Source: Spirulina subsalsa FACHB-351
GTDB taxonomy: Bacteria; Cyanobacteriota; Cyanobacteriia; Cyanobacteriales; Spirulinaceae
Assembly: GCF_026130165.1 (NCBI RefSeq)
Contig: NZ_JAIHOM010000047.1
Coordinates: 1 to 36,257, forward strand
Direction: 5' to 3'
Length of the DNA: 36,257 nt
The position numbers were made by a program, and so were the translations under genes. This document shows positions 1-36,257 of this stretch, one piece after another (within the stretch, counting starts at the first letter, position 1; every line of letters starts with the position of its first letter). Under the pieces are notes generated by a model that had not been told where the DNA came from, did not search any database, and worked only from the letters and a program-made list of their open reading frames with translations.

Positions 1-46
1 CTATACGTATAGTATGGGTGGTAGGGTGTATGCATAGATGGCCCTA
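1..46. repeat. Left telomere half-site (protelomerase target)
   Basis: Positions 1-18 hold the centre and right arm of a 24-bp perfect palindrome whose core is TATACGTATA. Its symmetry axis falls between bases 6 and 7. The same axis falls between 36255 and 36256 at the other end, so the unique sequence is bases 7-36255 and the outermost 6 and 2 bases are read-through of the hairpin or of the rejoined form. Bases 1-8 equal bases 36250-36257. Compared with the right end, three blocks match symmetrically about the axis: offsets 1-14, 20-29 (GTGTATGCAT at 26-35) and 34-40 (GGCCCTA at 40-46). Protelomerase sites of N15-type phages are such interrupted palindromes. Confidence 0.88.
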
Positions 47-162
47 GTAAGGACGGTGGCATAGTGTGGCGCAGGGCTTGCTATGTATGTATGCATTACC
101 ATAGGGCTTGACGTGCATACATAGGTGGTCTATAAAGGTTGTTAGGGTTTACTATGTATGCA
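26..162. repeat. Telomere-associated TGTATGCAT motif array, left
   Basis: Four copies of a motif around TGTATGCAT occur here: GTGTATGCAT at 26-35, TGTATGCAT at 88-96 (inside a longer TATG-repeat run from 82), the reverse form TGCATACATAG at 114-124, and CTATGTATGCA at 152-162. The last two are exact reverse complements of each other. Four related copies sit near the right end. The copy at 114-124 lies in the promoter spacer of the protelomerase gene, and the copy at 152-162 lies just before its ribosome binding site. They are probably binding sites of the protelomerase or of a telomere-linked regulator; which protein binds is inference. Confidence 0.7.
108..136 (+). promoter_or_regulatory. 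Protelomerase promoter with motif in the spacer
   Basis: There is a -35 box TTGACG at 108-113, a 17-bp spacer and a -10 box TATAAA at 131-136, close to the sigma-70 consensus with ideal spacing. The spacer carries the telomere motif TGCATACATAG at 114-124, and its inverted copy follows at 152-162, so a protein bound to these copies would block initiation. The layout suggests negative control of the protelomerase gene by a telomere-binding protein. Confidence 0.75.
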
Positions 163-178
163 TCAAGAGGGCAGGGCC

Positions 179-1744
179 ATGAGCGGAGAAACACGCAAGA
201 AGGTTCACCTGGGCGAGCTGATCGAGTGGATGCTCGAGGAGATCCGCAATATCGACGCCGACGAGTCGCTGGAGCGGAAGGAGAAGACGAAGAAGACAGC
301 ACGGCTGGCGAAGCGCTTCAAAACGCAGCTGCACGACGATGGCCGGCGGAAGGACGAGGATAAGATCGCGGTGAGCACCTATCGCCGCTACATGACCGAG
401 GCGCGCAAGGCGGTGACCGCCCAGAACTGGCGGCATCACAGCCTCGACCAGCAGATCGAGCGGCTGGCCAAGCGCTACCCGAAGTATGCCGATCGGCTGG
501 AGCGGCTGGGCACGCTGGCCACTATCAGCGAGATCCGCCTGGCGCACCGGGAGCTGCTCGACCGGATCCGCGACGATGACCAGGCGTATGAGGATATCCG
601 GGCGATGAAGCTCGACCACGAGATCATGCGCCACCTGACGCTGTCGTCAGCCCAGAAAGCCGAGCTGGCCGAGAGCGCGACGGACACGCTCGAGGAGCGT
701 GCGGTCAACACGGTGGAGATCAACTACCACTGGCTGATGGACCAGGTCTACACGCTGCTGACCAACCGCGAGCGCGTGATCGACGGCGAGTATCGGCCCT
801 TCTACAGCCACCTGGCGCTGGGGCTGGCGCTGGCCACCGGCCGGCGCTCGATCGAGGTGCTCAAGACCGGCCGGATCAAGAAAGTGGACCGCCACCAGGT
901 GGAGTTTTCCGGGCAGGCGAAGAAGCGCGGCGGGGTGGACTACAGCCAGGCCTATCACATTTACACCCTGGTCGACGCCGACCTGGTGGTCGAGGCCTGG
1001 AACGAGCTGCGCTCGCTGCCCGAGGTGGTCGAGCTGCAGGGCATGGACAATACCGAGATCAACCGGCGCACGGCCAAGACGCTGAACACGCTGGCAAAGC
1101 GGGTCTTCGATGACGAGGAGCGGGTGTTCAAGGACAGCCGAGCGATCTGGGCGCGGCTGGTGTTCGAGATGCACTTCTCACGCGACAAGCGCTGGAAGAA
1201 AGTCACCGAGGACGTGTTCTGGCGTGAAATGTTGGGCCACGAGGACATGGATACCCAGCGCAGCTACCGGGCCTTCAAGATCGATTACAGCGAGGGACCG
1301 GCGAGCGCGGAGCGCGAGCCGGCCGGCGGTCACGCCAGCCGCCTCGAGGCGCTGCGCGCCCTGGACGGCGCCGAGGAGCTGCAGGCCAGCCAGGCCATGG
1401 CGCGGGTGCATAACTGGGTGAAGGAGCAGGTCGAGCAGGAGCCCGAGGCGAAGATCACGCAGTCGCTGATCAGCCGCGAGCTGGGCACGTACCGGCCGAC
1501 GATCAAGGCATACCTGGAGCTGGCGGGCGAGGCCCTGGAGACGCCCAACGTGGCGCTGGCCAGGGTGGCCGCGCCGGTACCGGAAGAGGTCGCGCGGCCG
1601 AAGATCCGGGTGGGCGCCCGCGAGCTGGGCGGGCGCTGGGTCGGGGTGGCCTCGGTCAACGGCGTCGAGGTGGCGCGCGTCGATGACATGCCGAGCCGAG
1701 AGGAGGCCATGCGGGCAGCCTACACCGCGGCCGGCGGGCGCTGA
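179..1744 (+). CDS. Protelomerase (telomere resolvase)
   Basis: This enzyme cuts and rejoins the palindromic telomere site so that replicated DNA is resolved into linear copies with hairpin ends. The protein has 521 residues. The tyrosine-recombinase-like catalytic set is visible: Arg in TGRR (residues 220-223), Lys in QAKKRG (248-249), Arg in DSRAIWAR (321), His in LGHEDMD (354) and the nucleophile Tyr in QRSYRAF (363). Arg-Lys and His-Tyr spacings of about 25 and 9 match TelK/TelN. A C-terminal helical segment (about 424-451, KITQSLISRELG) looks like a helix-turn-helix. The start at 179 is chosen because AAGAGGG at 165-171 is well placed. An upstream ATG at 158 falls inside the telomere motif and lacks a good ribosome binding site. 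It is shorter than TelN (631 residues), like the protelomerases of marine relatives. Confidence 0.93.
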   Translation: MSGETRKKVHLGELIEWMLEEIRNIDADESLERKEKTKKTARLAKRFKTQLHDDGRRKDEDKIAVSTYRRYMTEARKAVTAQNWRHHSLDQQIERLAKRYPKYADRLERLGTLATISEIRLAHRELLDRIRDDDQAYEDIRAMKLDHEIMRHLTLSSAQKAELAESATDTLEERAVNTVEINYHWLMDQVYTLLTNRERVIDGEYRPFYSHLALGLALATGRRSIEVLKTGRIKKVDRHQVEFSGQAKKRGGVDYSQAYHIYTLVDADLVVEAWNELRSLPEVVELQGMDNTEINRRTAKTLNTLAKRVFDDEERVFKDSRAIWARLVFEMHFSRDKRWKKVTEDVFWREMLGHEDMDTQRSYRAFKIDYSEGPASAEREPAGGHASRLEALRALDGAEELQASQAMARVHNWVKEQVEQEPEAKITQSLISRELGTYRPTIKAYLELAGEALETPNVALARVAAPVPEEVARPKIRVGARELGGRWVGVASVNGVEVARVDDMPSREEAMRAAYTAAGGR

Positions 1745-34917: not shown

Positions 34918-35205
34918 TCAGTCGCCCAGAATCCTCTCGATATCCTTCACCTGGTAGCGGCCCTCGCCGCGCCGGTACTTCTCGAACAGATCCTCGACCG
35001 CTTCATCCAGGAACGTCTTCACCGGCACGTTATCGGCGCTGTTGACACGCATCGACGACAGCTTGCGGTGGATATCGACCGACGTGTCATAGGGCACGCG
35101 CTTTTTCGGCTGGTCGACCTCGGTGATGGCCTTCACGGCTTTCTCGACGTCCGGCCGGCCGGCGGCGCTGCTGCGTCGGGTGGTCAGCTTCTTGCGCTCA
35201 GCCAT
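34918..35205 (-). CDS. parB: Centromere-binding ParB-like protein (ribbon-helix-helix type)
   Basis: This 95-residue protein is encoded directly after parA, with an 8-base overlap. A basic, flexible N-terminus (1-34) is followed by a predicted strand RVPYDTSV (36-43) and two helices, IHRKLSSMRVN (45-55) and VKTFLDEAVEDLFEKYRRG (62-80). This is the plan of ribbon-helix-helix centromere proteins such as ParG and omega, not of the large SopB-type ParB of N15. Such proteins bind short repeats in the par promoter, often autoregulate it, and stimulate the ParA ATPase. The 8-bp iterons of this genome are the obvious candidate targets. Confidence 0.78.
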   Translation of the reverse strand: MAERKKLTTRRSSAAGRPDVEKAVKAITEVDQPKKRVPYDTSVDIHRKLSSMRVNSADNVPVKTFLDEAVEDLFEKYRRGEGRYQVKDIERILGD

Positions 35206-35836
35206 GGTTGAGCATCTCCAGCATTTCGCGGCCCAGGGCTTCGATCTCCTGGCGCGCTTTGTCGGTTTCCGGCAGGTCCATGACGCTGCCGCCTTTGGCG
35301 CAGTCGGCATAGGCGACGCGCTGGGTGGTGTGGGCGTCGAAGATCGGTAGCTCGTACTCGGCGAGCGCCTCGCGAACTTCCCGGCTCAGGTGGGTGTTCT
35401 TGATCACCCGCGACACCACGAACGCCGCCAGCGGCTTGCCGTCGGTCACTTCCTGGCGCGCCTGGATCAGCTCGACCAGGGTGGCGCAGGAGTAGATATC
35501 GAACGGCGACGGCTGGCAGGGGATCAGCACCAGGTCGGCGGCCTTCACGGCCGGCCCGGCCAAGTCTTTGATCTGCGGCGCACCGTCCAGCACCACGTAG
35601 TCATAGCCGCCGGCAACGCGCGGCAGATCCCTGGCCACCTTCGTGCCCATGGAGACGACCGGGAAGTCGTCGTCGCTGTCGCGCGTCTCGCTCCACTCGG
35701 TGGCAGAGCCTTGCGGGTCGAGATCCACCAGCAGCACTTTGAAGCCTTGCTTGTGCAGCCAGCAGGCCACGTTGGTCGCTTGCGTGGTCTTCCCGACGCC
35801 CCCTTTCTGGTTGAGTAATGCGATTACCTTGGTCAT
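35198..35836 (-). CDS. parA: ParA partition ATPase
   Basis: This 212-residue Walker-type partition ATPase moves plasmid copies apart. The deviant Walker A motif KGGVGKTT is at residues 10-17, LLVDLDPQGSA at about 35-45, and YVVLDGAPQIKD (Walker B region) at about 80-91. There is no N-terminal DNA-binding extension, so this is a type Ib ParA, consistent with the small RHH partner. ATG 35836 follows GAGG. It is the first gene of a leftward operon; its leader carries iteron cluster F. Confidence 0.93.
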   Translation of the reverse strand: MTKVIALLNQKGGVGKTTQATNVACWLHKQGFKVLLVDLDPQGSATEWSETRDSDDDFPVVSMGTKVARDLPRVAGGYDYVVLDGAPQIKDLAGPAVKAADLVLIPCQPSPFDIYSCATLVELIQARQEVTDGKPLAAFVVSRVIKNTHLSREVREALAEYELPIFDAHTTQRVAYADCAKGGSVMDLPETDKARQEIEALGREMLEMLNHG

Positions 35837-35884
35837 TGCGCCTCGCGCTCCTCGGTTTATGGGCTTGCAGAACGTACATTAGCA

Positions 35885-35900
35885 CAAAAGTACAAATGTA
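35885..35900 (-). repeat. Iteron cluster F in the parA leader
   Basis: Two direct 8-bp units in register, CAAAAGTA (35885) and CAAATGTA (35893), lie about 50-65 bases upstream of parA. They are flanked by TACAAT on one side and ACGTACATTAG on the other. On the parA strand the order TTGTAC, ATTTGTACTTTTGTGC, then TAATGT is nearly that of the repA leader. It is a likely par promoter/operator; the boxes are only partly like the sigma-70 consensus. Confidence 0.75.
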
Positions 35901-35904
35901 CAAT

Positions 35905-36140
35905 ACCCGCTAACTACGCCTTGCCTGACGCCTGACCGCGCCATGTCCTTACCTAGCGGCCTGCAACCCGCATGGTTGCGGGCTTCTCGCTTGCCCGGCG
36001 CCCTACCTGCTGCCCGGTGTCCTTTCCCTGTATGCCCGCCTTTCGGCCTTTCGCTGGCCATTCTGACGCCATGCCCGCCTTTATCTATTGCCTATCACCT
36101 TTACCGCTTTTCTGATCGCTGGCGACTCAATCATAGCAGG
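35905..36140. other. Non-coding region between the par leader and the right telomere
   Basis: No convincing gene is seen. A small hairpin (CCCGCA at 35967-35972 with TGCGGG at 35977-35982) and a 12-bp direct repeat ATGCCCGCCTTT (36032-36043 and 36071-36082) are the only structures noted. Confidence 0.5.
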
Positions 36141-36145
36141 GCTAC

Positions 36146-36236
36146 CTATGTATGCCCTACGCCATGCATACACTGTGCCCCCTACCTATGCATACATAGT
36201 GCCCCCTACTATATGTAGGGCCGCCCATGCATACAC
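36146..36236. repeat. Telomere-associated motif array, right
   Basis: Four copies related to TGTATGCAT occur: CTATGTATGC at 36146, ATGCATACAC at 36164, the near-palindrome CTATGCATACATAG at 36186-36199, and ATGCATACAC at 36227-36236. GTGCCCCCTAC is repeated directly at 36175-36185 and 36199-36209 (24-bp period), and CCCTAC at 36204-36209 pairs with GTAGGG at 36215-36220. It mirrors the left-end array. Confidence 0.7.
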
Positions 36237-36257
36237 ACTTGCACCCATACTATACGT
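36216..36257. repeat. Right telomere half-site (protelomerase target)
   Basis: The last 14 bases, CCCATACTATACGT, are the left arm and centre of the telomere palindrome, with the axis between 36255 and 36256. Outward symmetry with the left end continues with ATGCATACAC at offset 20-29 and TAGGGCC at 36216-36222 (offset 34-40). Joined to the left end this makes an interrupted palindrome of about 80 bp. Confidence 0.88.

Follow-up and report, generated by a model that had tools for sequence, protein, structure and literature searches.

Results

A linear prophage with a protelomerase gene beside its telomere

The window analysed here, a stretch of 36,257 nucleotides, is the entire contig (C63) of a 5.26-Mb bacterial assembly and is a linear plasmid prophage of the phiHAP-1/VP882 type. 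Both contig ends terminate inside one palindrome, read directly as CACCCATACTATAC/GTATAGTATGGGTG with the stroke at its centre, as expected for a linear prophage with hairpin telomeres. The left half of this core, CTATAC/GTATAGTATGGGTG, occupies 1..20 with the centre between 6 and 7, and the right half, CACCCATACTATAC/GT, occupies 36242..36257, both by direct reading; relatives carry a core of the same type. Eight bases, CTATACGT, are common to positions 1-8 and 36250-36257 and at both places run past the palindrome centre.

Downstream of the left core lies the protelomerase gene (179..1744, + strand; 521 residues), for which Pfam, a PDB match and an AlphaFold2 model delineate a TelK N-terminal domain, a muzzle, a ResT/TelK catalytic domain, a stirrup and a C-terminal beta-beta-beta-alpha domain. 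The four families PF16684, PF20818, PF22853 and PF20849 all score above their cut-offs, and the long inverted repeat for the hairpin ends adjoins the gene, both being characteristic of a TelK/TelN-type protelomerase. The protein matches PDB 2v6e with an E value of 3.3e-66, and TelK is the best solved structure match to the AlphaFold2 model (mean pLDDT 77.8, pTM 0.56), with a Z score of 18.7, an rmsd of 6.5 and 423 residues aligned. Among named phages, Halomonas phage phiHAP-1 and Vibrio phage VP882 (Hapunavirus) are closest, with protelomerases 76.6% and 54.7% identical to that of the window.

Divergent from the protelomerase gene across the telomere is a gene for a ParA-like partition ATPase (35198..35836, - strand; ORF list and Pfam). 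Inspection by eye revealed repeated GTACA/TGTACA words just upstream of it, at 35870-35909; they differ from the boxes described below and are possibly the operator of the partition system itself.

The protelomerase promoter and the bipartite box

Direct reading confirmed the promoter that had been noticed from the sequence alone: a -35 hexamer TTGACG (108..113, + strand), a 17-nt spacer (114-130) and a -10 hexamer TATAAA (131..136, + strand), followed by a likely ribosome-binding site AAGAGGG (165..171, + strand) ahead of the ATG at 179. An automated promoter scan listed nothing, and so missed this promoter, because its -10 criterion requires a T in sixth place. The sequence-only reading had further placed an 11-mer, TGCATACATAG, inside the spacer and an exact inverted copy before the ribosome-binding site. 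Both exact copies are present (114-124, + strand; 152-162, - strand); the longer boxes that contain them, described below, are direct repeats. The same motif had been reported four times at the other end, where one copy is exact (36189-36199) and the others carry one or two mismatches each. Allowing up to two mismatches, the window contains 12 matches to the 11-mer, some of which overlap one another at a single place; shuffled sequences average 2.99, and 0 of 100 shuffles reach 12. The whole 5.26-Mb assembly holds three exact copies, all within the ends of this contig.

Comparison of the upstream regions of relatives showed that the 11-mer is one half of a bipartite box of about 20 bp, TAGGGC-N6-TGTATGCA, whose TAGGGC half had been overlooked. 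A box model trained on 21 relatives, with the window and its near-twin L016 excluded, found 10 matches scoring at least 14.8 in the window, all of them within 15-162 or 36137-36247; the next-best scores were 10.8 (inside the left cluster) and 9.7. Markov resampling of the window (100 resamples) gave a mean of 0.07 and a maximum of 1 match at that threshold, and local resampling of the two end segments gave means of 0.03 and 0.07, compared with five matches observed per end.

Each telomere arm contains two overlapping boxes that face each other, making the box part of the telomere. In the left arm, one box reads away from the hairpin (15..34, + strand, TGGGTGGTAGGGTGTATGCA; score 14.8, or 16.8 in the telomere-only model introduced below) and the other towards it (27..46, - strand, TAGGGCCATCTATGCATACA; score 22.0). 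The right arm has the corresponding boxes reading towards the hairpin (36216..36235, + strand, TAGGGCCGCCCATGCATACA; score 16.4) and away from it (36228..36247, - strand, TGGGTGCAAGTGTGTATGCA; score 17.3). The outer arm motif is thus copied on both sides of the palindrome, as in a tos of the N15 type. Three more boxes lie on the ParA side, at 36137..36156 (+ strand, CAGGGCTACCTATGTATGCC; score 17.8), 36165..36184 (- strand, TAGGGGGCACAGTGTATGCA; score 14.9) and 36189..36208 (- strand, TAGGGGGCACTATGTATGCA; score 16.3).

The remaining three boxes lie on the protelomerase side, all on the + strand. P1 (72..91, CAGGGCTTGCTATGTATGTA; score 19.5) has a + box as its counterpart at +63 to +65 from the telomere centre in 29/32 of the loci compared below. 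P2, a proposed operator (102..121, TAGGGCTTGACGTGCATACA; score 21.1), carries the -35 hexamer at box positions 7-12, where it also lies within P2 of relatives; in the window P2 reads TGCATACA at a place occupied by TGTA in 23/32 loci. P3, likewise a proposed operator (143..162, TAGGGTTTACTATGTATGCA; score 22.2), starts at about the expected transcript start. At these predicted sites, then, the -35 hexamer and some of the spacer lie under P2, and the expected start of transcription lies under P3. We considered P2 and P3 as a single inverted-repeat operator and rejected this, as the two are direct repeats in box register and look inverted only because the TGYATRCA half is nearly palindromic. A second, telomere-only model, built from 171 telomere-arm and ParA-side boxes of other loci and excluding those of the window and L016, scores P1, P2 and P3 at 16.8, 19.5 and 19.9, and its best score elsewhere in the 36 kb is 9.8.

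The box array has a near-fixed geometry in relatives

We compared 49 sequences, the window and 48 loci, near-duplicates included. L015, with 47 residues only, and L019, taken as phiHAP-1, were excluded, L019 serving only as a structure-alignment row; L023 showed stop codons in the frame used and was removed from the protein alignment. A telomere core was recognised upstream of the protelomerase gene in 32 of them (window included); no core was recognised in the other 17, most of which have fewer than 300 bases upstream. As totals of 32 contain near-duplicates, a subset of 16 lineages with less than 85% protelomerase identity was also used. Both L037 and L049, two halves of one inverted contig (IMGVR_UViG_2713897325_000002), are counted in the 32. 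In that contig, a perfect palindrome whose halves measure 186 bp has a protelomerase on either side, an arrangement that is either a replicated telomere junction or the result of an assembly reading round the hairpin.

Relative to the telomere centre, box starts are nearly fixed at about -119, -91, -67, -39, -27, +7, +19, +64, +94 and +135. The five negative positions are filled in 16, 18, 20, 26 and 23 of 27 loci, respectively, and the five positive ones in 26, 29, 29, 30 and 22 of 32. When P2 was sought 25-60 bp upstream of P3, a pair was found in 43/49 sequences (near-duplicates included), spaced 41 bp in 30/43 and 40-42 bp in 38/43; the remaining five spacings are 29, 43, 45, 45 and 58, and 6/49 sequences yielded no pair. 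By eye, the picks made in this way for L018, L032, L044 and L050 look wrong, and a restricted rule gives 39, 41, 40 and 41 for them. This restricted rule allows spacings of 39-43 only and rewards a -10-like hexamer, so that its 32/32 pairs are not independent evidence for either the spacing or the -10. With no preferred spacing imposed, 41 bp is still the commonest distance between two + boxes, found in 8/16 lineages at a score of at least 10 and in 9 at a score of at least 6, followed by 28 bp in 6 lineages.

The position of the promoter itself varies. Measured from the telomere centre, P2 lies at +91 to +96 in 24/32 loci, and at +150 to +173 in the other 8/32 (6/16 lineages), where the promoter is 55-80 bp farther from the telomere. 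In these eight distant-promoter loci the pair spacing is 40-41 bp, for 5/8 also under the less restricted picking, and 7/8 retain their boxes at about +19, +64 and +92. As a box is still present at +92 in those seven, P2 there is an extra box and has not simply shifted, and the retention of the pair at the distant promoter indicates that P2 and P3 are positioned relative to the promoter, with extra boxes filling the longer distance.

Conservation follows the boxes: across 27 distinct segments, the two halves of P3 carry 1.86 and 1.65 bits per column and those of P2 1.79 and 1.52, whereas the -35 and the -10 hold 1.33 and 1.22 and the flanks and gaps 0.28-0.72, figures biased towards the boxes since segments were chosen by box score and among 41-bp pairs only. 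A hexamer with at least 4/6 matches lies at the -10 position in 30/32 loci, a count to which the picking rule contributes, as -10 likeness is itself part of it. A usable -35 is present in 29/32 loci at 3/6 matches or better and in 15/32 at 4/6 or better. The -35 has been lost in the three exceptions, L040, L046 and L051 (TATAGG/TATGGG), in which P2 and a -10-like hexamer persist. Under the 25-60 bp picking, L014 and L041 also fall into this -35-less group. In the -35-less clade the box nearest the gene reaches into the apparent start codon, with no space for a ribosome-binding site.

Promoter boxes co-vary with the telomere arms

To compare promoter boxes with the telomere boxes of the same genome, we used the 16 lineages. 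Arm-to-P2 identity is 0.521 within genomes and 0.469 between them (p 0.004), and arm-to-P3 identity is 0.600 within and 0.492 between (p 5e-5), neither corrected for phylogeny. One locus, L044, has TGTAC in its arms, P2 and P3 alike, and the boxes of VP882 are also TGTAC-form variants.

Some phages with other telomere sequences look similar. N15, phiKO2, PY54, Valp1 and ARM81ld each have their own repeats between telomere and protelomerase gene; upstream copies of the phage's own arm or arm-flank sequence are clearest in ARM81ld, N15 and phiKO2 and weak in PY54. In a matrix in which arms and promoters were swapped among six types of our choosing (window, L044, N15, PY54, Valp1 and ARM81ld, with K242, KpLi5 and P840 left out as near relatives of members), the matched pairing ranks 1 of 720. 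Matched z values are 3.3 for N15 and ARM81ld, 2.9 for phiKO2 and 2.0 for Valp1, and weak for PY54 and L044 (0.9 each) and for the window and L018 (0.8 each). The best match of N15 and phiKO2 lies in the palindrome flank and not in the palindrome itself. Vibrio phage HY01 (L066), a more distant telomere phage, encodes a protelomerase homologue with no recognisable telomere palindrome nearby in its record, the longest perfect palindrome half in 21-29 kb being 7 bases.

We also asked where boxes lie in the rest of the two named relatives. In phiHAP-1, boxes outside the telomere-promoter region score 9.3 at most; in VP882, all 13 matches scoring 9 or more lie inside the telomere region. This argues against an operator for a general phage repressor, and an operator of the phage CI type was rejected on the same confinement to the telomere region.

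Box distances between genomes correlate with protelomerase distances (Mantel r 0.816) and with ParA distances (r 0.754) in the 11/32 loci in which a motif rule recognised ParA; Pfam showed ParA-type ATPases in four loci missed by the rule. The partial correlation is 0.49 for the protelomerase (p 0.08) and -0.12 for ParA (p 0.79), again in 11/32 loci only.

Beyond the stirrup, these protelomerases end in the beta-beta-beta-alpha domain (window 1604-1729, residues 476-517). It has an invariant NG and A, with NGVEVA in most of 15 aligned protelomerases. The window's domain matched no Pfam family, that of L040 reached 20.8 bits against dsrm, under the cut-off of 23, and dsRBD-type chains appeared among the Foldseek matches with insignificant scores only. 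It may act as an additional DNA-reading module for the bipartite box.

Discussion

A model for control of the protelomerase promoter

The sequence-only reading proposed that a protein recognising telomeres, most simply the protelomerase, could shut off its own promoter and link enzyme level to the number of telomeres. Comparison gives good support to the first element, the predicted regulation of this promoter by some protein that reads telomeres, through the operator-like geometry, the pair tied to the promoter and the co-variation of promoter and arm boxes. That the protelomerase is this reader is likely, and we infer that it would bind boxes outside the core palindrome; that binding at P2 and P3 would repress, rather than activate or coat the end, is suggested by the geometry. 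A link between enzyme level and telomere number is a conjecture. Overall, the boxes are real and conserved and probably form an autoregulatory operator array, and we assign a probability of roughly 0.6 to the reading in which the protelomerase binds the boxes and represses its own promoter through P2 and P3 as operators.

On the molecular level, the protelomerase would recognise the box of about 20 bp, which is present twice in each telomere arm, three more times on the ParA side and three times on the protelomerase side. When a fresh genome enters, the near-consensus promoter would fire freely, and the enzyme produced would make the ends and coat them via the boxes. Accumulating enzyme would then occupy P2, at the -35 contact of RNA polymerase, and P3, at the start site, thereby blocking RNA polymerase, and its own synthesis would drop to a maintenance level. 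As operators and telomeres stand in a fixed ratio per genome copy, plain autorepression would hold free enzyme constant while total enzyme tracks genome copy number. In a lysogen of a Klebsiella telomere phage, nine phage proteins were detected, the protelomerase being one of them (PMC12042878, in part), as would suit a gene held at a low, steady level and not silenced.

A protein able to read outer repeats has precedents in the literature. In TelK, the stirrup provides an additional DNA-binding domain at the C-terminus (PMC3558466, in part). A proposal for TelN assigns recognition of the outer repeats to its C-terminal domain CTD1, although TelN lacking CTD1 still protects ends (both from portions of PMC12624138); we infer that CTD1 corresponds to the stirrup. 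For cutting by TelN, a 56-bp telRL is described as enough in the part of PMC3540006 consulted, and extracts of PMC10612081 describe the flanking repeat of the P840 telRL as dispensable and that of PY54 as important for cutting in vivo. Outer repeats may thus not be needed for cutting, and the sufficiency of the 56-bp telRL and the dispensability of the P840 repeat suggest that they perhaps have another role.

Several other explanations have to be weighed against autorepression. The boxes might serve only to assemble a telomere nucleoprotein complex of the N15 tos kind, for protection or pairing of the ends, with the promoter lying inside the array and unregulated. The near-fixed distance of boxes from the telomere centre in 32 loci speaks for such a complex, as do the ParA-side boxes, near which the strict scan lists no promoter, although it also missed that of the protelomerase, and a protective assembly on the N15 outer repeats is proposed in the available portion of PMC12624138. 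Since distances to the telomere vary little more than the spacing of the promoter pair, an end complex with an architectural role only would account for part of the pattern. P2 and P3, however, keep their 40-41 bp at the promoter when it lies 55-80 bp farther from the telomere, and in genomes of the window's type the spacings at the left end (about 45, 29-30 and 41) are unlike those at the right (27-28, 24 and 28), and we consider it unlikely that architecture is the whole explanation. It is somewhat less probable still that protelomerase bound at P2 activates its own promoter, or both activates and represses it. The location of P2 on the -35 would suit an activator, and L040, L046 and L051, with box and -10 retained and the -35 gone, are not predicted by repression alone; on the other side stand the usable -35 in the window and most loci and the position of P3 over the transcript start, which is that of a repressor.

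The boxes might instead be read by a different phage protein, for instance the neighbouring ParA or a ParB-like partner. In the window the telomere separates the ParA gene from that of the protelomerase, Pfam identified ParA-type ATPases in all four relatives examined with it, and the ParA distances do correlate with the box distances. Box distances, however, track the protelomerase somewhat better, if weakly given 11/32 loci and a p of 0.08, and the boxes lie in the telomere arm, near where the protelomerase must bind; a reader of this kind would come as a real surprise. Chance or a shared TATG-rich sequence is very unlikely, to the point of being negligible: the terminal regions are indeed richer in A+T (GC 0.478 and 0.508, compared with 0.662 for the window), but after resampling of the whole window and of the end segments themselves, base composition yields a small fraction of one match where five are seen at each end.

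Beyond autorepression as such, we tentatively raise a bolder idea, to which we give a low probability: with the promoter physically in the telomere complex, the near-rigid array from hairpin to start codon might read the occupancy or resolution of its own end in cis, in several telomere-phage families, and bound enzyme may activate in the -35-less clade. If true, the condition of a bacterial telomere would govern the expression of a gene across families with different telomere sequences. Autorepression itself, if true, would assign a function to telomere-flanking repeats, predict a DNA-binding specificity, the box, that is testable with short oligos, and supply operators with which protelomerase could be tuned in systems that produce linear DNA. 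It bears on how telomere phages set the dose of an enzyme that makes and protects ends, a topic absent from the excerpts of the papers cited here.

Comparison with known systems

The closest likeness is to phiHAP-1 and VP882, which share the telomere core type, the boxes and the promoter pair with the window; their records do not annotate the boxes, that of phiHAP-1 having one repeat_region over the palindrome. In N15, a central palindrome is flanked on both sides by degenerate copies of an outer motif, L1-L3 and R1-R3 (PMC12624138, in part). The N15 telRL/tos with TelN thus resembles the window in that outer copies flank the palindrome, and its repeat also occurs between the telomere flank and the telN start. 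It differs in the motif, and the excerpted text of PMC12624138 treats the N15 repeats as telomere or protection elements and not as operators. In the open-licence literature we found no report of protelomerase autoregulation or promoter control, which is not proof of absence; PMC12802170, PMC10432266 and PMC4488713, as far as their available text goes, concern other circuits of telomere phages.

Among the fold matches to the protelomerase are the SPbeta regulators MrpR/YopR (8a0a, Z 7.2, rmsd 4.7, 165 aligned; 8bpz, Z 7.7, rmsd 4.5, 169 aligned), in which a tyrosine-recombinase fold serves as a regulator, Z values below 8 not being strong evidence of relation. This prophage master regulator is not known to have an end-forming role. 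The Tn3/gamma-delta resolvase, a DNA-cutting serine recombinase, represses its own promoter from res sites that overlap it; there, recombination and operator sites coincide, whereas in the window the putative operators are extra copies of the outer box that lack the cutting core. In iteron plasmids such as P1 and R6K, the repA promoter lies inside the initiator's own site array and further sites elsewhere titrate the protein, a circuit that serves replication initiation, in contrast to end formation in the window. Autoregulatory logic is therefore known from resolvase/res and from iteron-embedded repA promoters, and telRL-flanking repeats are known in N15; what appears to be new is the proposed variant at a protelomerase promoter.
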